14,876 nt of DNA, from NCBI GenBank assembly GCA_021154065.1, contig JAJKJG010000270.1:1-14876 (forward strand), in the 5' to 3' direction. Numbering within the stretch: position 1 is the stretch's first letter; each line of letters starts with the position of its first letter. The notes beneath the pieces are model-generated. The model was not told where the DNA came from and did no database searches. It saw nothing but the letters and a program-made list of their open reading frames with translations. The stretch is from Methylobacterium sp. Its GTDB lineage: Bacteria; Pseudomonadota; Alphaproteobacteria; Rhizobiales; Beijerinckiaceae. Both the position numbers and the translations under genes were made by a program. Below, in pieces: positions 5,191 through 14,568 of the stretch.

Positions 5191-5652
5191 ATGCGCCTCG
5201 AATACTTCGAAATGATCGACCGCGTCGTGTCGCTCGACCGCACCGGGAAGCGCATCGAGGCGCGCTCGGTCGTGCCCGATGAGAGCCCGATCTTCGAGGG
5301 CCATTTCCCCGGGCACCCGCTGATGCCGGGCGTCCTTCTCACCGAGACCATGGCCCAGGCCTCGGGCTATCTCGTGCTCGGCCTCATGGATTTCAGCCAC
5401 ATGCCGTTCCTAATGGCGGTCGACAAGGCGCGCTTCCGGACCTTCGTCGGCCCGCGCTCCGAGCTTGCGATCACGGCCGAGCTCGAGCACGAGGGCTCGG
5501 GCTACGCGGTGACGAAGGCGGCGATCGCGGTCGCCGGCAAACGCATCTGCGACGCCTCGCTGCGCTTCAAGACCATGCCCTTCCCGGACGGGATGGCGGC
5601 GGCGATGCGCGAGCAGGCGCGGCGGATCGGGCTTCTCGCGGCGGCCGGATGA
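5191..5652 (+). CDS. fabZ: FabZ-like 3-hydroxyacyl-ACP dehydratase of the VLCFA cluster
   Basis: This hot-dog-fold enzyme would dehydrate 3-hydroxyacyl-AcpXL during VLCFA elongation. The signature GHFPGHPLMPGVLL carries the catalytic His38, and the partner acid is Glu52 in TETMAQASGY, so the active site looks intact. The length is 153 residues, normal for FabZ. I chose the ATG at 5191 because MRLEYFEMIDRV matches the family N-terminus. A TTG at 5134 in the same frame would add 19 residues encoded by the GC hairpin and is unlikely. No Shine-Dalgarno sequence is visible before 5191, where an inverted-repeat arm ends, so translation may be weak or depend on acpXL. The stop overlaps the next start as ATGA. 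Confidence 0.93.
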   Translation: MRLEYFEMIDRVVSLDRTGKRIEARSVVPDESPIFEGHFPGHPLMPGVLLTETMAQASGYLVLGLMDFSHMPFLMAVDKARFRTFVGPRSELAITAELEHEGSGYAVTKAAIAVAGKRICDASLRFKTMPFPDGMAAAMREQARRIGLLAAAG

Positions 5653-6776
5653 TGCGCGAGGTCGTCATTACCGGCGTCGGGCTTGTGTCGTGTGTCGGCG
5701 AGGACGCCGAATCCCACCTCGCGGCGCTGGCGAGCGGCGCCCCGCCGCGGCTCGACACGACGACCTTCGCGCCCTACGCGGTACACCCGGCGGTGCATCT
5801 CGACTACGACCGGCAGATCCCGAAGAAGTCGGACCAGCGGCAGATGGAGCCCTGGCAGCGCCTCGGCGTCTACGCCGCCGGGCTCGCGCTCGAGACCGCC
5901 GGCGCGAAGGCCGACGCAGGCCTGAAGGGGCGCATGCACCTCATCGTCGCGGCGGGCGGCGGCGAGCGCGACTACGCCGTCGACGGGCAGATCCTGACCG
6001 GCATCCGCAACGCCGCCGATCCGGGGGTGTTCCTCAACGAGCGCCTGATGAGCGACTTGCGCCCGACGCTCTTCCTCGCCCAGCTCTCGAACCTGCTGGC
6101 CGGCAACATTTCGATCGTGCACGGCGTCACCGGCGCCTCGCGGACCTTCATGGGCGAGGAGAGCGCCGGCCTCGACGCGATCCGCGTCGCTCATGCCCGC
6201 ATCGCCGCCGGCCAGGGCGATATCTTCCTGGTCGGCGGCGCCTACAACGCCGAGCGGCCGGACGTGCTCCTGATGTTCGAGCTCGGCGGGTTCCTCTGGA
6301 AGAAGCCGTTCCGGAGCGTCTGGGACCGCGCGGCCGAGGGCGGCGGCTTCATCCCCGGATCCGGGGCTGCGTTCCTGGTCATGGAGGCGCGCGAGCATGC
6401 GGCGCGGCGCGGCGCGACGCCGCTCGCCGCGCTCGCCGGGGTCGTCTCCGAACGGACCCGGCGCACCCCGGGCGCGCTTCCGGCCGCGCTCGCGAGGCAT
6501 TGGGCGACGCTCGGGGCGAGCCCCGGCGCCGTCGTGCTCTCCGGCGCGACCGGGGTATCGCCGGCGAGCGAGGAAGAGCGGGCCTGGCTGACCACCGTGG
6601 GTGCGGCAACGATCCACGCCACCGGCGACCTCGTCGGCCATACTGTGGAAGCCCAGGCGCCGACCGGGGCGGTGCTGGCGACGGCACTTCTGCAGCGCGG
6701 CGCAGCCGAGGCGGTCGTGACCTCGGTCGGGCATTGGCGCGGCGATGGCGCGATCCGCCTGACCCGCGCCGAGTGA
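5649..6776 (+). CDS. degenerate beta-ketoacyl-ACP synthase (FabF2, chain-length-factor-like)
   Basis: This 375-residue thiolase-fold protein is homologous to FabF but lacks the catalytic set. Where FabF has a TACTSG-type nucleophile elbow it reads ISIVHGVTGAS, putting Val160 at the cysteine position. The NAHGT region reads LSGATGV, without histidine. The KSMTGH region becomes GDLVGH, keeping His331 but losing lysine. The C-terminal GFGG loop reads GHWRGDG. It is also shorter than the usual 410 or so residues. Rhizobial VLCFA clusters are known to carry two fabF-like genes side by side. By analogy with KS-alpha/KS-beta pairs of type II polyketide synthases, this one probably dimerises with FabF1 and helps set chain length (inference). 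It overlaps fabZ by 4 bases and ends 7 bases before fabF1. Confidence 0.88.
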   Translation: MMREVVITGVGLVSCVGEDAESHLAALASGAPPRLDTTTFAPYAVHPAVHLDYDRQIPKKSDQRQMEPWQRLGVYAAGLALETAGAKADAGLKGRMHLIVAAGGGERDYAVDGQILTGIRNAADPGVFLNERLMSDLRPTLFLAQLSNLLAGNISIVHGVTGASRTFMGEESAGLDAIRVAHARIAAGQGDIFLVGGAYNAERPDVLLMFELGGFLWKKPFRSVWDRAAEGGGFIPGSGAAFLVMEAREHAARRGATPLAALAGVVSERTRRTPGALPAALARHWATLGASPGAVVLSGATGVSPASEEERAWLTTVGAATIHATGDLVGHTVEAQAPTGAVLATALLQRGAAEAVVTSVGHWRGDGAIRLTRAE

Positions 6777-6783
6777 GGGCAAG

Positions 6784-8061
6784 ATGGCGCATCGGGATCG
6801 TCAGGGACGTCCGCTCGTCGCGGTGACCGGCCTCGGGGTCGTCACCTCGCTCGGGCAGGGGCGGGAGGACAACTGGACGGCGCTCACCGCCGGCCGCTCG
6901 GGCATTCACGCCATCAACCGCTTCCCGACCGAGGCGCTGCGGACGACGATTGCCGGCACCGTCGACTTCGTCGCGGCAGAGCCCTTCTGCGCACCGATGC
7001 TCTCCGAGCGGCTGGCGATGCTCGCCGCCGAGGAGGCGGTAGGCGAAGCAGGCGCCGGCCGCACCGGCGACTTCCCGGGCGCCTTGTTCATCGCGGTGCC
7101 GCCGGTCGAGCTCGAATGGCCGCAGCGCCAGGCGCTCGCCGAGGCCTCGGGGCAAAACGACGGCGTCACCTACCGGGATCTTCTCGGCGCGGCGGCGACC
7201 GGCCGCTTCAAGCCTTGGCACGATCTCTTCCTGTTCGGCACCGTCGCCGACCGGATCGCCGATCGCTTCGGCACCAAGGGCTCGCCGATCTCGCTGTCGA
7301 CGGCGTGCTCCTCGGGCGCGACCGCGATCCAGCTCGGGGTCGAGGCAATCCGGCGCGGCGAGACCGACGCCGCCCTGTGCATCGGCACCGACGGCTCGGT
7401 GCACGCCGAAGCGCTGATCCGGTTTTCCCTGCTTTCGGCGCTGTCGACCCACAACGATCCGCCCGAGGCCGCCGCCAAGCCCTTCGCGAAGAATCGGGAC
7501 GGCTTCGTCATGGGCGAGGGCGCCGCAGCGCTCGTCATCGAGAACGCCGAGGCGGCGCGCGCCCGCGGCGCCGCCATTCTCGGCTACGTCCTCGGCTGCG
7601 GCGAGCGCGGCGACGGCTTCCACCGCACCCGCTCGAGCCCGGACGGGGCGCCGATCGTCGCCGCGATCCGCGGCGCGATCGAGGACGCCGGCCTCACGCC
7701 GGACGACATCGACTACGTCAACGCGCACGGCACCGGAACGCCCGAGAACGACAAGATGGAGTCGATGGGCTGCATGGCGGTGATCGGCGAGCGCATGAAA
7801 TCGGTCCCGATCTCGTCCAACAAGTCGATGATCGGCCACACGTTGACCGCCGCCGGGGCGGTCGAGGCCGTGATGTCGCTCTTGACGATCCGCAGTGGCC
7901 GCATCCCGCCGACGATCAACTACCACGTCCCGGACCCGGCGATCCCGCTCGATGTGGTGCCGAACGAGGCCCGGGACGCCGACGTCGGCATCGTGCTGTC
8001 GAACTCCTTCGGCTTCGGCGGCCAGAACACCTGCCTCGTCATCGGAGCCGAGCCGAAGTGA
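6784..8061 (+). CDS. beta-ketoacyl-ACP synthase II-type, active condensing enzyme (FabF1)
   Basis: This enzyme would condense malonyl-ACP with the growing chain on AcpXL. It has the full Cys-His-His catalytic set: Cys175 in STACSSGA, His315 in NAHGTGTP, and Lys347/His352 in SSNKSMIGH. The C-terminal gating loop NSFGFGGQN is also intact. At 425 residues it is slightly longer than E. coli FabF. The ATG at 6784 follows GAGGG from the end of fabF2. Its stop overlaps the start of the reductase gene as GTGA, so the two are co-translated. It is the likely catalytic partner of the degenerate ketosynthase upstream. The gene belongs to the lipid A VLCFA cluster rather than to housekeeping fatty acid synthesis, judging by its neighbours. 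Confidence 0.94.
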   Translation: MAHRDRQGRPLVAVTGLGVVTSLGQGREDNWTALTAGRSGIHAINRFPTEALRTTIAGTVDFVAAEPFCAPMLSERLAMLAAEEAVGEAGAGRTGDFPGALFIAVPPVELEWPQRQALAEASGQNDGVTYRDLLGAAATGRFKPWHDLFLFGTVADRIADRFGTKGSPISLSTACSSGATAIQLGVEAIRRGETDAALCIGTDGSVHAEALIRFSLLSALSTHNDPPEAAAKPFAKNRDGFVMGEGAAALVIENAEAARARGAAILGYVLGCGERGDGFHRTRSSPDGAPIVAAIRGAIEDAGLTPDDIDYVNAHGTGTPENDKMESMGCMAVIGERMKSVPISSNKSMIGHTLTAAGAVEAVMSLLTIRSGRIPPTINYHVPDPAIPLDVVPNEARDADVGIVLSNSFGFGGQNTCLVIGAEPK

Positions 8062-8807
8062 CGCGGCGGGTCCTCGTCACCGGCGGCGGCCGCGGGCTCG
8101 GCGCCGCGATCGTCCGGGCGCTCGTCGCGGCCGAGCACGACGTCGACTTCACCTATCGGGCGTCTGGCGACGCCGCCGAAGCGCTCGTCGACGAGCTCGC
8201 CGCGGCCCATCCGGGGCGCAGCATCAAGGCGCATGCCATCGATCTTTCCGAGAAGGGCTCGCTCGACATCTTCTGCGACGCTATCGAGAAGGAGGGCTTC
8301 TTCGGCTTCGTGCACAATGCCGGCCAGGCCTATGACGCTCTTGCCGCCATGATGGCCCAGGACAAGGCCGAGGCGGCGATGCAGGTCAACTTCTGGTCAA
8401 TGACGCGCCTCGCGAAGGCCGTGCTCCGCGGCATGATCCGGGCCCGCGCCGGCCGCATCGTCGCCATCGGCTCGGTCGCGGCGCTGCAAGGCAATCCCGG
8501 GAACGCCGCCTACGCGGCCTCCAAGGGAGCGCTCCTGTCCTACTGCCGCACGCTGGCGATCGAGACCGCGAAACGCGGCATCACCGTCAACACGGTCGCG
8601 CCGGGCTTCGTCGACACCGAGATGATGGCCCCCTACGCGAGCCACCGGGCCGGGATGGAGAAGCAGATCCCGGCCGGCCGCTTCGCCAGATCCGAGGAGG
8701 TCGCCGGCCTCGTCGCGTTCCTGATGAGCCCGCCCGCAGCCTACATCACCGGCGCGGTGCTGCCCGTCGACGGCGGCCTCACCGCGATGATCGGGGTGCA
8801 TCGGTAG
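8058..8807 (+). CDS. FabG-like 3-oxoacyl-ACP reductase (SDR family)
   Basis: This NAD(P)H-dependent short-chain dehydrogenase probably reduces 3-oxoacyl-AcpXL to the 3-hydroxy form. The 249-residue product has the cofactor loop TGGGRGLG (residues 8-15), HNAG (87-90), structural Asn111, and the catalytic Ser139, Tyr152 and Lys156 in the YAASK context. The C-terminus, with TGAVLPVDGG, is also typical of FabG. The start is a GTG overlapping the fabF1 stop as GTGA, which indicates tight coupling. As I recall, the best-studied rhizobial acpXL clusters lack a fabG in this position, so its presence gives this operon its own ketoreductase. The cellular FabG may also serve the pathway; substrate assignment is inferred from context. 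Confidence 0.9.
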   Translation: MTRRVLVTGGGRGLGAAIVRALVAAEHDVDFTYRASGDAAEALVDELAAAHPGRSIKAHAIDLSEKGSLDIFCDAIEKEGFFGFVHNAGQAYDALAAMMAQDKAEAAMQVNFWSMTRLAKAVLRGMIRARAGRIVAIGSVAALQGNPGNAAYAASKGALLSYCRTLAIETAKRGITVNTVAPGFVDTEMMAPYASHRAGMEKQIPAGRFARSEEVAGLVAFLMSPPAAYITGAVLPVDGGLTAMIGVHR

Positions 8808-8844
8808 CAGTGGCGAGGCGCTTTCCCTACATTGAGGAGCTCTT

Positions 8845-8850
8845 GGGGAG
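8845..8850 (+). promoter_or_regulatory. ribosome binding site of the antitoxin gene
   Basis: GGGGAG ends 4 bases before the ATG at 8855 and supports that start over the in-frame GTG at 8810, which has no good site. Confidence 0.55.
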
Positions 8851-8854
8851 AACC

Positions 8855-9091
8855 ATGGCTGATCCCGTGACCCTTCACATCGAGCCGTCGACGATCGGCG
8901 CGATCGATGAACTCGCCAGGAAGGCCAACCAGCCACGAGACGTGCTCGTGGAGGAGGCGCTTCAGAATTTCGTCAAACTGCGCGCCTGGCAGATCGCCAA
9001 GATCGAGGAGGGGATCGCGGCGGCGGATCGGGGCGAGTTCGTGAGCGATGAGGAGATGGACCGGATCTTCTCCAAATACGACTCGGCATGA
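8855..9091 (+). CDS. ParD/CopG-like antitoxin of a type II toxin-antitoxin pair
   Basis: This 78-residue protein has the ribbon-helix-helix pattern of CopG/ParD-type antitoxins. A short strand (VTLHIEPS) leads into helix TIGAIDELARKANQ, then PRDVLVEEALQNFVK. The acidic C-terminal tail, with EEGIAAADRGEF and DEEMDRIFSKYD, is the part that usually wraps the toxin. It would neutralise the toxin encoded next and repress its own promoter as a dimer. The 47-base gap after fabG is the widest within the operon apart from the acpXL-fabZ gap and could hold an autoregulated promoter. None is obvious. Its stop overlaps the toxin start as ATGA, the usual antitoxin-first order. Confidence 0.88.
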   Translation: MADPVTLHIEPSTIGAIDELARKANQPRDVLVEEALQNFVKLRAWQIAKIEEGIAAADRGEFVSDEEMDRIFSKYDSA

Positions 9092-9384
9092 GGATCGTCT
9101 GGACCGAGCCCGCCTCTCGCGATCTCGAGGACATCGGCGACTACATAGCGAAGGACAATCCAGCCGCGGCACGCCGTGTGGTCCGGGCCATCGAGGCCGC
9201 GGCGCGACGGCTCGCCCGCTTCCCGCATAGTGGGCGCCCTGGACATCGGGCGGGCACCCGAGAACTCGTTGTCCCGAGAACTCCCTATATCGTGCCGTAT
9301 CGTGTCGGTCCCAGAGCGGTCGAAATCCTGGCGGTCTTTCATGGCGCGCGGGATTGGCCCAACACCTTCAACCCGGAATCCTGA
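9088..9384 (+). CDS. RelE/ParE superfamily toxin
   Basis: This 98-residue basic protein has the RelE/ParE fold. It opens with strand MRIVWTEPASRDLEDIGDYI, followed by helix RRVVRAIEAAARRLARFP, the family G-R-x-G turn (SGRPGHRAGTRELVV), and the closing strands YIVPYRV and VEILAVFHGARDWP. The overall pattern is closer to ParE-like members than to mRNA-cleaving RelE, so the target (gyrase or ribosome-bound mRNA) is not settled. The gene overlaps the antitoxin by 4 bases, and its stop is followed directly by the ATG of the dehydrogenase with no base between. The pair is thus embedded in, and coupled to, the fatty-acid operon. It appears intact, with no frameshift. Confidence 0.9.
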   Translation: MRIVWTEPASRDLEDIGDYIAKDNPAAARRVVRAIEAAARRLARFPHSGRPGHRAGTRELVVPRTPYIVPYRVGPRAVEILAVFHGARDWPNTFNPES

Positions 9385-10407
9385 ATGCGCGCCCTCCAGC
9401 TCTTCGGCGACCGCGACCTTCGCCTGACCGAGATCGATCCGCCGGCGCCGCCGGCGGAAGGCGAGGTGCAGGTGCGGGTGCGGGCGATCGGCCTCAACTA
9501 CCTCGACCTGTGGGGCTTCCGCGGCATGGCTTTCGCCAAGCGCAAGATGCCCCAGGTGGTCGGCGTCGAGGCGGCCGGCGAAGTCGCTGCCGTCGGCCCC
9601 GGCGGGTCGCGCTTCGAGGTCGGCGATCCGGTCGTGATGTACGGGGCCGAAACCTGCGGCCATTGCCGCGCCTGCCGGGAGGGCCGCGACAACCTGTGCG
9701 AGAACGTCGCCGGCATCCTCGGCTTCCACCTCGACGGCTTTGCGCGTGCGCTCATCAACCGGCCCGAGCGGCTCGTCGTCCCGGTGCCGCAAGGGGTGAC
9801 GTTCGAGCAGGCGGCGTGCGCGCCGATCGGCTTCGGCACCGTGCAGCACATGCTGTTCGATAACGCCCGGCTCGAGCCCGGCGAATCGATCCTCGTCCAT
9901 GCCGGCGGCTCCGGCATCGGCACCGCCGCGATCAAGATGGCAAAGGCGATCGGCTGCACCGTGTTCACGACCGTCGGCGACGACGAGAAGGGCCGCGGCG
10001 CGAAAGCGCTCGGGGCCGACCACGTCATCAACTACAAGACCGAGCGCTTCGAAGGCGAGGTCCGCAAGCTCACGAAGCGAAAGGGCGTCGACGTGGTGTT
10101 CGAGCATGTCGGCGCCGACACCTGGAACGGCTCGCTCCTGTGCCTCAAGCGCGGCGGACGCCTCGTCACCTGCGGCTCGACCTCGGGCGTGTCCGCGACC
10201 ATGAACCTGATGCAGCTGTTCCAGCAGCAGTACCGCATCTTCGGCTCCTTCGGATGCTCGCTACGCAACATTGCCGATGCGCTCGCCAAGATGGCGGGCG
10301 GCCTCACGCCGGTGATCGATTCGGTCTACCCGCTCGACGACTTCGCCAAGGGCCTCGGCAAGCTCGAGGCCCGTCAGGCCTTCGGGAAGGTCATCGTGAC
10401 CTTCTGA
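9385..10407 (+). CDS. MDR-family dehydrogenase of the VLCFA cluster (AdhXL-like; probable enoyl reductase)
   Basis: This 340-residue medium-chain dehydrogenase/reductase corresponds to the zinc-type alcohol dehydrogenase gene found in rhizobial acpXL-lpxXL clusters. The cofactor loop is HAGGSGIGTAA (glycines at about 174-179). The structural zinc lobe is complete: Cys91, Cys94, Cys97 and Cys105 in CGHCRACREGRDNLC. The catalytic zinc ligands are missing. The usual Cys position reads GLNYLDLW and the GHE motif reads GVEAAGE. A quinone-oxidoreductase or enoyl-reductase type hydride transfer is therefore more likely than alcohol oxidation (inference), which would complete the elongation cycle. 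It starts at the base after the toxin stop and ends 7 bases from the convergent glycosyltransferase gene, with no terminator between them. Confidence 0.88.
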   Translation: MRALQLFGDRDLRLTEIDPPAPPAEGEVQVRVRAIGLNYLDLWGFRGMAFAKRKMPQVVGVEAAGEVAAVGPGGSRFEVGDPVVMYGAETCGHCRACREGRDNLCENVAGILGFHLDGFARALINRPERLVVPVPQGVTFEQAACAPIGFGTVQHMLFDNARLEPGESILVHAGGSGIGTAAIKMAKAIGCTVFTTVGDDEKGRGAKALGADHVINYKTERFEGEVRKLTKRKGVDVVFEHVGADTWNGSLLCLKRGGRLVTCGSTSGVSATMNLMQLFQQQYRIFGSFGCSLRNIADALAKMAGGLTPVIDSVYPLDDFAKGLGKLEARQAFGKVIVTF

Positions 10408-10414
10408 CGCGCTC

Positions 10415-11488
10415 TCAAGCCGTTCGGATCGCGGCCTCGACGACGCGGGCGACCTCGGCGGCGCGCGCCTCCCAGGAGTGCTCGGCCGCAACGATCAGCG
10501 CACCCTTGTGGCCGAGGGCCGAGGCCAGCTCCGGATCGCCGGCGAGCCGCGCCACCGCCGCCGCAAGCCCGTCCGGATCGGCGATCGGCACCACGAGACC
10601 GCAGCCCGTCGCGCGCACGAACTCGGCCTGGCCGCGCAGGTCGCTGATGATGACGGGAGTTCCGCAGGCAAGCGCCTCGAACATCTTGAGCGGCATCACG
10701 CCCCGCGACGACCGGCCTTCCGGATCGGAGATCGGCACGAGCGCCGCAACCGCGCCGCGGATCAGGGCCGGCAGCTCGTTCTGCCGCCGTCCGCCGAGCC
10801 ACACCACGTTGCGCGGCGGACTCTCGAGCTGCGGCCGCAGGCTTTCGTCCACCATCGCGCCGGCAATGACGAGATCGACACCCTCCGGCCATGCCGGCGA
10901 GCGCGCCGCCTCGAGCATCACGTCGACGCCGTGCCAGCGCACGAGCCCGCCGAAAAACATTACGTAAGGCCGCTTGTGCGCCATCCGCGGACCGTCCTCG
11001 CGAAACAGCGCTGTGTTGGCTCCGTTGCTGATCAGCGACACGCGCTGATGTCTCGCCTCCTCCCGGCCCCACGAGACAAGGTCCGGGGTGACGGCGACGA
11101 GGGCGGTCGCCCAGCGGTATTGAACCCGCTGAGCCCAGGCCAGCATCGACCGCAGCACCATGAAGCGCGGATGGGTCACGAAAGCGTCGTCGTAGGCGCC
11201 GTTGATCTCATGGATCGTAGGACGGCGCAGGAGCCGCGCCGCGAGCGCGACCGGCAGGGCCGCGAAATGCGAGCGGAAGAACACGGCCTTGGTTCGCGGC
11301 AGCGCCGCCATGCTGCGGCCGAGGACCCGGAAATAGCGCAGCACGCGGTCGCCGAAGCGCCACTTGTCGCCGCCTTCGGCGATGAGGTCGACCGCGATAC
11401 CCCGCCGTCGCAGGCCCTCGCAGATCTCGTGCACATGGGTCGCCGCGGCGCTTCCGGGCACGATCCGCTCGAAGCAGACGTAGAGCAG
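10415..11488 (-). CDS. GT4-family glycosyltransferase
   Basis: This GT-B retaining glycosyltransferase probably adds a sugar to a surface polysaccharide or LPS at the cytoplasmic face; donor and acceptor are unknown. The N-terminal Rossmann domain begins RLLYVCFERIVPGSAAATHV. The C-terminal domain has FFGGLVRWHGVDVMLEA and the donor-binding stretch PLKMFEALACGTPVIISD (Glu271 and the CGTPV turn). No usual start codon fits. The frame reaches back to an ATG at 11656 inside asnB, but the first 56 residues are not domain-like. A CTG at 11488 with GAGGG 7 bases upstream gives a 357-residue domain-complete protein and is my choice. GTG at 11464 would remove the first strand. It is cotranscribed after asnB and ends tail to tail with the dehydrogenase. 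Confidence 0.85.
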   Translation of the reverse strand: MLYVCFERIVPGSAAATHVHEICEGLRRRGIAVDLIAEGGDKWRFGDRVLRYFRVLGRSMAALPRTKAVFFRSHFAALPVALAARLLRRPTIHEINGAYDDAFVTHPRFMVLRSMLAWAQRVQYRWATALVAVTPDLVSWGREEARHQRVSLISNGANTALFREDGPRMAHKRPYVMFFGGLVRWHGVDVMLEAARSPAWPEGVDLVIAGAMVDESLRPQLESPPRNVVWLGGRRQNELPALIRGAVAALVPISDPEGRSSRGVMPLKMFEALACGTPVIISDLRGQAEFVRATGCGLVVPIADPDGLAAAVARLAGDPELASALGHKGALIVAAEHSWEARAAEVARVVEAAIRTA

Positions 11489-11495
11489 GCGCTGG

Positions 11496-11500
11496 CCCTC
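11496..11500 (-). promoter_or_regulatory. probable ribosome binding site of the glycosyltransferase gene
   Basis: GAGGG on the minus strand overlaps the asnB stop codon (TGA) and lies 7 bases before a CTG. The spacing is ideal, but CTG starts are rare. It supports stop-start coupling of asnB and the glycosyltransferase. Confidence 0.4.
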
Positions 11501-13397
11501 AGAGGGTGACGCCGAATCGCTCGCCCCAGATGCCCATGCTGACGATACGCCAGGCGGTGAAGTCGACAGGTCTTTGCCCCTCAAGCATCGCGCTGACCAG
11601 CGCTCGTGTGGCCCGAGCGTCGAGAAGGCCAGGGAAGCGCGCCAAGGTCGCCTCAACGCCGTCGAGAATCAAGGGCTTGAGCGGCCCTCTGAACCACGCC
11701 TGCTCCGGGGTCGCAAAGCCGAGCTTGTCGCGGCGCGCCAGAATCGCGGGCGGCAGCACGTCCGTCATGGCGCGCCGGAGCACCCGTTTGGTGTCGGCGC
11801 CGACGAGCTTGTGGTCGTTGCCGAGCGCCAGCGCGAACTCGACCAGGCGATGATCGAGGAACGGCACGCGCGCCTCGATGGAGTGCGCCATCGAGTTGCG
11901 GTCCTCCCAATGCAGCAGCATCTGGAGGTTCGCCGAGAAGGTCAGCACGACACAGAGCGTCGCCACGTCGATCACCTGCGGCAGGCCGTTGATGGCGCTC
12001 GCGAGCTCGAGCGCGCCGTGGTCGGGCGCGAGCGTCCCGAACGCCTCGGACTGAAGCCAGCGCCGGCCGGCGCCGTTGCGGCCCGCCTTGAGGGCTTGCG
12101 CGAGGCGTGGCGGCAAGGCGACCGCGGCGAGGCGCGTCAGCTGATCGGCGACGCCGCAGCTGTGAGCGCCGACCCGTTGCGACACCGTGCTCGCGAGCGC
12201 CGTCAGCCGGCCCTGGCGGATCAACGTCAGGAGGTGCCAGGCATAGGTCCAGTGATAGCCGGCGAGCGCTTCGTCGGCGCCCTGGCCGTCGAGCATGACC
12301 TTGATCCCGGCGCGGCGCGCTTCCTCGAACACGCACCACTGCGCGAAGATCGAGGTCGAGCCGAAAGGCTCGTCCTGGTGCCAGGTGAGATCGGATGCCC
12401 GGGCGAAGACATCCTCCGGCCTTGGAAACACCCGGTGCGGTATCGCGCCGGCGTGCGCCACCACAGCCGCCATGAACGGCGTCTCGTCGACGGCTTTCTC
12501 GTCGTAGCAGGCCGAGACCGTGTTGACCCGAGCGCCGCGCCCCTCGGCATCGAGCATCCGGCTCATGAGGCAGACGATCGAGGAGGAATCGAGCCCTCCC
12601 GAGAGGCAGGACCCGATCGGCGCGTCCGAGCGCAGATGCAGGCGCACCGAATCGACGAGCAGCGACCGGAACTGTTCCGCCGCCTCCGCCTCGGAGAGCC
12701 GGAGCGTCCCGTGCGGGGGGATCGCGTACCAGCGCTTCGGCTCGATCCGCCCCGTCCAGGCCCGCCCGGCCGCGATCGCGACGCAGCAGCCGGGCTGGAG
12801 CTGGACGACGCCCTCGAACAGCGTTTCCTGCGTGTGGTCGCTCATCCCGGCGGCGAGGAAATCGCGCACGCGGGCAAGATTCATCCGTCCGCTCAGGCCG
12901 GGGAGTCCCAGAAGCTGCTTGATCTCCGAGGCGAAGGCGATCCCGCGCTGATTGCCCGCCATGTAGAGCGGCTTGATGCCGAAACGATCGCGCGCCGCGA
13001 ACAGGATCTGCTCGCGCTCGTCCCAGATCAGAAACGCGAACATGCCGAGGAAGCGATGAAGGCAGTCTTCGCCCCACTCCCGATAGGCCGCGAGCAGGAC
13101 CTCGCTGTCGGTGTCCGACGAGAACTGGTGCCCTTTGGCCCGCAACTCGTCCCTAAGCTCGAGGTAGTTGTAGATCTCGCCGTTCAAGACGAGATGGTAG
13201 CGGCCGGATGCGTCGGCCATCGGCTGCAGCCCGGCCTCGCTGAGATCGATGATCGCGAGCCGCCGGTGCCCGAGCGCCACCGGACCGGCCGCAGAGGCGA
13301 ACTCGCGCCACCCCGATCCGTCAGGCCCGCGATGAGCGACACGGTCGATTCGCGCCCGCTCCGGGGCGAAGGCGATGGATGCGTAGAGGCCGCACAT
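11499..13397 (-). CDS. asnB: asparagine synthase (glutamine-hydrolysing)-like amidotransferase
   Basis: This 632-residue AsnB-family enzyme couples an N-terminal glutaminase to a C-terminal synthetase. The glutaminase nucleophile Cys2 follows the initiator Met (MCGLYASIAF). Glutamine-binding motifs are HRRLAIIDLS (44-53) and NGEIYNY (72-78). The ATP pyrophosphatase loop SGGLDSSS is at 266-273, and the later motif EARVPFLDHRLVEFA is present, so both sites look functional. The length and glycosyltransferase partner match the AsnB-like enzymes of polysaccharide clusters (WbpS-type), which amidate uronic acids, better than housekeeping AsnB; this is inference. The linker between Cys2 and HRGPDGSGW is shorter than usual. 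The ATG has no visible Shine-Dalgarno sequence, and a perfect hairpin lies 4 bases upstream. It is divergent from lpxXL. Confidence 0.92.
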   Translation of the reverse strand: MCGLYASIAFAPERARIDRVAHRGPDGSGWREFASAAGPVALGHRRLAIIDLSEAGLQPMADASGRYHLVLNGEIYNYLELRDELRAKGHQFSSDTDSEVLLAAYREWGEDCLHRFLGMFAFLIWDEREQILFAARDRFGIKPLYMAGNQRGIAFASEIKQLLGLPGLSGRMNLARVRDFLAAGMSDHTQETLFEGVVQLQPGCCVAIAAGRAWTGRIEPKRWYAIPPHGTLRLSEAEAAEQFRSLLVDSVRLHLRSDAPIGSCLSGGLDSSSIVCLMSRMLDAEGRGARVNTVSACYDEKAVDETPFMAAVVAHAGAIPHRVFPRPEDVFARASDLTWHQDEPFGSTSIFAQWCVFEEARRAGIKVMLDGQGADEALAGYHWTYAWHLLTLIRQGRLTALASTVSQRVGAHSCGVADQLTRLAAVALPPRLAQALKAGRNGAGRRWLQSEAFGTLAPDHGALELASAINGLPQVIDVATLCVVLTFSANLQMLLHWEDRNSMAHSIEARVPFLDHRLVEFALALGNDHKLVGADTKRVLRRAMTDVLPPAILARRDKLGFATPEQAWFRGPLKPLILDGVEATLARFPGLLDARATRALVSAMLEGQRPVDFTAWRIVSMGIWGERFGVTL

Positions 13398-13620: not shown

Positions 13621-14568
13621 GTGATTCACAACCCGTCTCGTCTCAGGCGCGCGCTGTGGAAGATCGGCGAGGTCGGCATGATCGGCGTCGTCCGCGGCGT
13701 GTTCGCGCTGGCGCGCGCGCTCGGGCCCGACCGGTCGAGCGCCGTCGGGGGCGCCATCGCGCGCCGGCTCGGCCCGCTCCTGCCGCAGCACCGGATCGGC
13801 CTCGAGAATCTGCGCGCCGCCTTTCCGGACAAGAGCGAAGCCGAAATCCGCGCGATCCTCGCCGGCGCGTGGGAGAACATCGGCCGCCTCGGCGCCGAAT
13901 ACCCCCATCTCGGCCAGCTCTTCGACTACGACCACTACTCCGGCGAGATCGGGCGCATCGAGGTCGACGGCATCGAGCACTTCATCGCCCTCGCCGAGGA
14001 CGGCAAGCCGGCCCTGATCTTCTCGGCCCATCTCGCGAACTGGGAGCTGCCGCCGATCTGCGCCGCCCGCTATGGCCTCGACGCGACCGTGGTCTTCCGC
14101 CCGCCGAACGAGCCGGCGGCCGCCCATGTGCTGCACGAGATCAGGAGCCAAACCATGGGCGGCCTCGAGGCGGCGCGGCAGGGCGCCGCCTTCGCGATGC
14201 GTGGCGTGCTCGAGCGCGGCGGCCATCTCGGCATGCTGATCGACCAGCATTTCACCCGCGGCGTGACGGTCGACTTCCTCGGCCGGCCGGCATTCACCAA
14301 TCCGATCATGGGCAAGTTCGCGCGCGCCTTCGACTGCCCGGTCCACGGCGTGCGGGTGATTCGGCTGCCGGCCGGCCGTTTCCGGCTGCAGCTCACGCCG
14401 GCGCTCGACCTGCCGCGCGATGCCGAAGGCCTCGTCGACGTGCAGGGCGCCATGCAGGCGATGACGCGCGTCGTCGAGGATTGGGTGCGCGAGCACCCGG
14501 AGCAGTGGCTCTGGATGCACCGGCGGTGGCGGCCGCCGCTCCCTCACGCGCGCCTCAAGGCAACGTGA
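13621..14568 (+). CDS. lpxXL: LpxXL, VLCFA lipid A acyltransferase (HtrB/LpxL family)
   Basis: This inner-membrane acyltransferase would transfer the very-long-chain acyl group from AcpXL to the lipid A precursor. The catalytic H-x4-E motif is seen as SAHLANWELP (His137, Glu142). Further family stretches are DQHFTRGVTVDFLGRP and the C-terminal EQWLWMHRRWRP. A hydrophobic N-terminal segment (about residues 18-34) anchors it to the membrane. The length is 315 residues, normal for the family. The start is a GTG at 13621 with a weak ribosome site; the next in-frame ATG (13678) would cut the N-terminal segment. In rhizobial clusters this gene follows adh directly, but here two minus-strand genes (about 3.2 kb) lie between, so it needs its own promoter. 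Confidence 0.92.
   Translation: MIHNPSRLRRALWKIGEVGMIGVVRGVFALARALGPDRSSAVGGAIARRLGPLLPQHRIGLENLRAAFPDKSEAEIRAILAGAWENIGRLGAEYPHLGQLFDYDHYSGEIGRIEVDGIEHFIALAEDGKPALIFSAHLANWELPPICAARYGLDATVVFRPPNEPAAAHVLHEIRSQTMGGLEAARQGAAFAMRGVLERGGHLGMLIDQHFTRGVTVDFLGRPAFTNPIMGKFARAFDCPVHGVRVIRLPAGRFRLQLTPALDLPRDAEGLVDVQGAMQAMTRVVEDWVREHPEQWLWMHRRWRPPLPHARLKAT

Follow-up and report, generated by a model that had tools for sequence, protein, structure and literature searches.

A 14,876-nucleotide stretch of DNA from Methylobacterium sp. (contig JAJKJG010000270.1 of assembly GCA_021154065.1; analysed whole and called the window here) carries the known gene cluster for the very-long-chain fatty acid (VLCFA) of lipid A. 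Two adjacent genes of this cluster, fabF2XL and fabF1XL, encode ketosynthase-fold proteins, of which FabF1 is an intact ketosynthase (KS) and FabF2 has lost the catalytic Cys, first His and Lys. We consider it likely that FabF1 and FabF2 form a pair like the KS/chain length factor (CLF) pairs of type II polyketide synthases, in which FabF2 would be the non-catalytic partner in a heterodimer and would influence chain length. A preliminary description of the locus, made from the DNA letters, had proposed such a pair at 5649..8061, and these coordinates are right: fabF2XL occupies 5649-6776 and fabF1XL 6784-8061, both on the plus strand. Assignment of the first gene to the fabF2XL family follows from a score above the curated cut-off of NF005084 together with its position in an acpXL-fabZXL-fabF2XL-fabF1XL cluster (Table 1).

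Catalytic residues were compared in an alignment of 112 FabF2 rows (108 distinct, L081-L084 being repeat entries of L069, L045, L001 and L016), the FabF1 partner of each, and 12 further alphaproteobacterial FabF-type proteins. The alignment omits nine FabF2 loci without an adjacent FabF1 in the sequence analysed (L036, L041, L051, L054, L056, L062, L065, L074 and L100), and in L074 and L100 the sequence stops near or within FabF2. At the column of the ketosynthase nucleophile, all 112 FabF1 rows have Cys and all 112 FabF2 rows have Glu, which in the window is Glu171 of the motif MGEE. The preliminary description was correct that Cys, the first His and the Lys are gone, each in 112/112 rows, but it had named Val160 as the lost nucleophile; both the alignment and the letters themselves rule this out, and Val160 sits 11 residues upstream of the true position. 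The column of the first His (Thr301 in the window) contains Thr, Ser, Cys or Ala in every FabF2 row, and that of the Lys (Gly326) contains Gly, Ala, Ser, Asn or Thr. The second catalytic His (His331), whose retention had gone unmentioned, is kept in 108/112 rows. The altered gating loop described earlier is also present, with GHWRG replacing the GFGG of FabF; in E. coli FabF, Phe400 of this gate is a putative gating residue (PMC7138838).

FabF1 of the window retains every catalytic residue, as had been claimed (Cys175, His315, Lys347 and His352), as well as GFGG at residues 410-413. Across the FabF1 rows, the His, Lys, His and the Phe of GFGG are intact in 111 of 112, the exception (L060) being a 210-aa protein truncated at a contig end. 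All 12 of the other FabF-type proteins retain Cys, His, Lys and His, whereas FabF2 retains only the second His and lacks the full set (Cys with His, His and Lys) of an active beta-ketoacyl-acyl carrier protein (ACP) synthase (KAS I/II). By alignment, the ketosynthase catalytic residues are lost throughout the FabF2 family. A further motif, GGERD at FabF2 residues 104-108 (window 5958-5972), is invariant in all 112 rows; its last three residues form an insertion relative to FabF in one alignment and are aligned to FabF residues in another.

The loss extends well beyond this genome. A genome scan confirmed 422 loci, of which the best 80 were retained. MGEE is present in 121/121 FabF2 loci (117 distinct, window included). 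The comparison with rhizobial FabF2XL suggested in the preliminary description gave the same picture, since S. meliloti FabF2XL (618 bits against NF005084) has the same Glu and the same losses. In 12 hand-picked pairs, the ratio of nonsynonymous to synonymous substitution rates (dN/dS) was 0.07-0.27 for FabF2 and 0.07-0.17 for FabF1, values that place FabF2 under purifying selection. Because MGEE is universal and dN/dS is low, the catalytic loss goes beyond chance and does not reflect decay; both a recent decay of FabF2 and the earlier concern that the Cys might be missing in this genome alone, alongside other decay, can be set aside. Judged by profile scores, the family is also sharply bounded: the FabF2 model exceeded its cut-off in 18/385 class genomes and 28/299 phylum genomes, always with at least 371 bits, and the best match below the cut-off in either sample reached 94 bits.

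FabF2 and FabF1 occur together. FabF1 (E<=1e-150) was found in 17 of the 385 class genomes, and all 17 are among the 18 that carry FabF2, although the FabF1 model's own cut-off was passed in only 10 of the 17. The FabF1 search, and with it this co-occurrence, covers the 385 class genomes. In the eighteenth genome (G231), a contig end truncates FabF2, and the search found no FabF1 above the cut-off. Gene order could be tallied in the 71 of 80 loci with enough flank, and FabF1 directly follows FabF2 in 64 of these. Seven split loci (L036, L041, L051, L054, L056, L062 and L065) have acpXL-fabZ-fabF2 at one place and fabF1-fabG elsewhere in the same genome, with adh seen beside fabF1-fabG in five of the seven and no 40-mers common to the fabF2 locus and the fabF1 locus. 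Both genes thus persist where the operon is divided. Like a CLF gene, fabF2XL is encoded alongside an intact KS partner, and FabF2 is probably kept as the partner of FabF1.

Published genetics place fabF2XL in the pathway. An A. fabrum fabF2XL mutant makes lipid A without VLCFA, and a plasmid built from a 1513-bp fragment that includes fabF2XL restores it in part; wild-type lipid A carries 28:0(27-OH) and 30:0(29-OH) (PMC11901934). Because the plasmid partly complements in trans, fabF2XL itself is apparently needed for the VLCFA. No fabF1XL or fabF2XL mutants could be recovered in Bradyrhizobium ORS278 (PMC5613085). The genetics, together with co-occurrence and operon linkage, show that the two proteins function jointly but not that they touch, and would also suit a FabF1 homodimer that works alone while FabF2 serves the same pathway outside the ketosynthase dimer, as a non-catalytic scaffold or as a helper that binds AcpXL. 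A fused-chain structure prediction that gave no defined pairing (described below) would fit this arrangement too. We nevertheless consider it unlikely, given one clean FabF2-FabF1 fusion protein and the overlap between the FabF2 conservation peak and the FabF dimer interface.

The fusion protein (P0140, 818 aa) was the clean case among 12 long matches examined. Its N-terminal half scores 398.5 bits with the FabF2 model (cut-off 320; best stretch 1-379) and contains MGEE, and its C-terminal half scores 549.8 bits with the FabF1 model (under the 629 cut-off; best stretch 401-817) and has the catalytic set intact. The survey drew on the 120 of 833 matches that were listed, from which the 12 were chosen by length and coverage and compared with both halves; six sequences were read. 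P0134 and P0135 were rejected as fusions, the sequence between their halves being garbled, as was P0136, in which the FabF2 end is missing and FabF1 is broken. The remaining long matches were partial or garbled, apart from P0250, which is of another kind. P0250 and a protein of a Streptomyces plasmid (L139, 3953-6319) are single chains that combine a ketosynthase with a Cys-less ketosynthase-like half (860 and 788 aa, respectively).

Block conservation, computed on 40 non-redundant loci, differs between the two proteins. In FabF2, whose mean score is 0.67, block 136-150 reaches 0.94 and block 151-165 reaches 0.90, and the segment 136-171 (DLRPTLFLAQLSNLLAGNISIVHGVTGASRTFMGEE) forms a peak that ends at the nucleophile position. 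FabF1 shows its lowest conservation at 121-150 (0.49) and its peaks near the catalytic motifs (0.92 at 166-180, 0.96 at 346-360 and 0.92 at 406-420). In Listeria FabF, the dimer interface is formed by residues about 140-180 and by loops near 260-270 and 398-402 (PMC5206705), and it is this interface that the FabF2 peak overlaps. Among the least conserved blocks of FabF2 (0.47-0.66) are those of residues 256-360, where His331 and the positions of the missing His and Lys lie. This profile also bears on the idea that FabF2 performs a new chemistry of its own, such as chain priming, release or hand-over, by means of Glu170 and Glu171 with His331 or by means of GGERD. The invariance of GGERD and MGEE and the genetic requirement for the gene would be expected of such an enzyme, but His331 is not invariant and lies in this poorly conserved region, and we regard the idea as quite unlikely.

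Access to the pocket of Listeria FabF is controlled by Phe400 and Ile108 (PMC5206705). FabF2 has Gly (Gly104 in the window) in 112/112 rows where 11/12 other FabF-type proteins have Ile, and Thr (Thr140) in 112/112 rows where 12/12 have Phe. From the alignment, we take these columns to be the Ile108 and Phe133 regions, respectively.

In the KS/CLF complex, an active KS is obligately paired with an inactive one in a heterodimer, and the number of extensions is set mainly by a channel at their interface (PMC12664062). As references we used five annotated KS/CLF pairs, each located on a Streptomyces plasmid; no CLF is annotated at a sixth locus, L156. Like the actinorhodin-type complexes, the window pair sets an intact KS beside a KS-fold partner in which a carboxylate or an amide takes the place of the Cys. 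The alpha6 interface helix is closer to FabF-type proteins in FabF2 than in FabF1 in 41/41 pairs, and in CLF than in KS in 5/5 Streptomyces pairs. For the catalytic segments the order is reversed, FabF1 being closer than FabF2 in 40/41 pairs (the exception is L060, with its truncated FabF1) and KS closer than CLF in 5/5. In both systems, then, the inactive partner keeps the interface helix and loses the catalytic segments, and the active subunit does the reverse. The gene order differs, since fabF2XL precedes fabF1XL here and the CLF gene follows the KS gene in the five sampled Streptomyces loci, and so does the product, a lipid A fatty acid here and a polyketide in type II KS/CLF systems.

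The nucleophile position invites one more explanation. FabF2 has an acid there, where the five sampled CLFs carry Gln, and an acidic residue comes just before it in both proteins (Glu170 in FabF2; Glu in four CLFs and Asp in one). FabF2 could on this basis be a KSQ-type malonyl-ACP decarboxylase that supplies starter units, with Glu171 in place of Gln. KSQ enzymes, however, are known to retain both the first His and the Lys, which are lost in all 112 FabF2 rows, and decarboxylation alone would leave the strict pairing with FabF1 unexplained. This makes a decarboxylase very unlikely.

Several observations weigh against a KS/CLF-like heterodimer. The resemblance put forward in the preliminary description holds for the pattern of kept and lost segments and for the Cys-less KS fold, but does not extend to the individual residues: FabF2 has Glu where 5/5 Streptomyces CLFs have Gln, and it lacks the Lys and keeps the second His, whereas the two of five CLFs whose sites beyond the nucleophile were compared keep the Lys and have Arg for the second His. 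The clean fusion rests on three member sequences and one contig. In the alpha6 helix, two ApeR-like ketosynthases are also low (mean 0.99, against a FabF1 mean of 1.01), and published ApeR is a homodimer (PMC8358021). Because this homodimer-kin control is equally low, a low alpha6 score is no proof of heterodimers. Two ApeO-like proteins are lower still (-0.23), and published ApeO is the KS of a heterodimer; both names were assigned by gene order and are absent from the records. The best PDB matches of FabF2, by sequence and by fold, are FabF and not CLF, and a fused-chain AlphaFold2 (AF2) prediction of the L001 pair (predicted local distance difference test, pLDDT, 70.6; predicted template modelling score, pTM, 0.50) gave no defined pairing from a shallow 12-row alignment, with the FabF1 half also poorly folded. 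FabF2 on its own was predicted with a pLDDT of 84.5 and a pTM of 0.85, and the model aligns over nearly its entire length with full-length FabF (KAS II), whose fold it shares.

The aryl polyene proteins also offer a parallel, since ApeO-ApeC is a KS/CLF heterodimer from a lipid-linked pathway of Gram-negative bacteria. ApeC, however, is about half-size and has lost most of its second thiolase domain (PMC8358021), whereas FabF2 is near full length.

Phylogeny was examined with a 78-row tree, which omits the half-size row L135_hyp, and with a 28-row subset. In the larger tree, FabF2 and FabF1 (26 rows each) each form one side of a 100/100 branch, and FabF2 is a single clade on a very long branch, apart from the CLFs. 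The smaller tree groups FabF2 with two CLFs (92/94, not starred), and a sister relation of FabF2 and FabF1 was not rejected (p 0.15). The separate groups speak against a recent origin of FabF2 as a copy of FabF1, even though the sister relation stands unrejected. FabF2 may be either a derived CLF or a parallel invention. In direct comparison, FabF2 scores 52.8 bits with one CLF and 32.0 bits with its own neighbour FabF1. No CLF-named NCBIfam model was among the matches of the two CLFs scanned.

If FabF1 and FabF2 do form a KS/CLF-like pair, FabF1 would condense malonyl units onto the AcpXL-bound chain, and FabF2 would be the other half of the dimer, supplying the conserved interface segment 136-171. 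FabF2 would also offer an unblocked pocket wall and let the chain grow past C18. Because Gly104 and Thr140 replace the bulky Ile and Phe, the acyl chain could cross the interface, through a tunnel of the putative heterodimer, to reach C26-C30 on AcpXL. FabG, FabZ and possibly AdhXL would finish each cycle, and LpxXL would transfer the C26-C30 product to lipid A. Of these steps, the setting of chain length by FabF2 is the least certain.

More tentatively, the whole acpXL locus might be a dedicated, fully reducing, type II polyketide synthase-like line for a membrane lipid. Its parts would be AcpXL as carrier, FabF1/FabF2 as the KS/CLF pair (with Glu for Gln), the dehydratase and, in this clade, FabG as ketoreductase and AdhXL as an MDR-type enoyl reductase; FabF2 would set the C26-C30 length of its product. 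Profile scans of nine cluster proteins (NCBIfam and Pfam) detected no hydroxylase among them, and because of this it can be proposed that the omega-1 hydroxyl stems from a 3-hydroxybutyryl starter whose own hydroxyl is never removed. This further step is unsupported and improbable.

In the literature, rhizobial FabF2XL is named 3-oxoacyl-ACP synthase II or beta-ketoacyl-ACP synthase in the text available. The terms 'catalytic' and 'chain length factor' are absent from the main texts of PMC11901934 and PMC5613085, and the accessible portions of PMC5539429 and PMC7663294 contain no discussion of the missing residues. FabF2XL was not found described as a CLF among the literature matches listed, a coverage that excludes most subscription journals, and the available parts of the cited papers offer no explanation for the C28-C30 chain length of lipid A. 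A disarmed FabF2 twin beside a working FabF1 could explain such unusually long chains. If FabF2XL is CLF-like, a gene reported to be needed for the VLCFA has been named for a chemistry that is most likely beyond its product. The KS/CLF principle would then extend from secondary metabolites to a primary membrane lipid, and the chain length of an outer-membrane lipid would become testable by altering one interface.

Table 1. Genes of the VLCFA cluster in the window and the diagnostic sites of FabF2
Feature	Position	Strand	Basis
acpXL, specialised acyl carrier protein, 93 aa	4812..5093	+	NF005079 168.7 bits (cut-off 83); PF00550
fabZXL, 3-hydroxyacyl-ACP dehydratase-like, 153 aa	5191..5652	+	PF07977 77.7 bits; FabZ equivalog cut-offs not reached
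fabF2XL, ketosynthase-fold protein lacking the ketosynthase catalytic residues, 375 aa	5649..6776	+	NF005084/PRK06519 527.8 bits (cut-off 320)
FabF2 residues 136-171, conservation peak ending at nucleophile position	6054..6161	+	conservation blocks
Glu171 codon, position of ketosynthase nucleophilic Cys, motif MGEE	6159..6161	+	alignment
Thr301 codon, position of first catalytic His	6549..6551	+	alignment
Gly326 codon, position of catalytic Lys	6624..6626	+	alignment
His331 codon, second catalytic His, retained	6639..6641	+	alignment
GHWRG, replacing GFGG gating loop	6729..6743	+	alignment
fabF1XL, intact ketosynthase, 425 aa	6784..8061	+	NF005076/PRK06501 751 bits (cut-off 629)
fabG-like ketoreductase, GTG start, overlaps fabF1 end	8058..8807	+	PF13561 164 bits
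adhXL, zinc-binding dehydrogenase of the medium-chain dehydrogenase/reductase (MDR) family	9385..10407	+	PF00107 and PF08240
lpxXL, lipid A acyltransferase	13621..14568	+	NF005120 444.1 bits (cut-off 273)

The rhizobial acpXL-lpxXL cluster has FabF2XL and FabF1XL of the same family and in the same gene order as the window, in which the stop of fabZXL overlaps the start of fabF2XL. A relative of the fabG-like gene is present in 58/71 full-flank loci. All of the NCBIfam matches listed for AdhXL are below cut-off; the best is a PIG3-family quinone oxidoreductase model, and acryloyl- and crotonyl-CoA reductase models rank lower. AdhXL may possibly be an enoyl reductase.

Two minus-strand open reading frames (10415-13397) lie between adh and lpxXL and appear by eye to be glycosyltransferase-like and asparagine synthase-like. 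The locus nearest to the window among the best 80 of 422 is L001, from a Rhizobiales bacterium (FabF2 identity 76%), in which lpxXL directly follows adh without intervening open reading frames. Two database proteins, P0110 and P0122, are 96-97% identical to the window FabF2, and at least 8,000 scored database candidates reach E<=1e-30. The cluster also contains a ribbon-helix-helix/ParE-type toxin-antitoxin pair on the plus strand (8810-9384), between fabG and adh; the S. meliloti locus has neither this pair nor fabG. Among the 71 full-flank loci, a similar pair occupies the same place in L001, L018, L046 and L073, and ParE alone is found there in L070.

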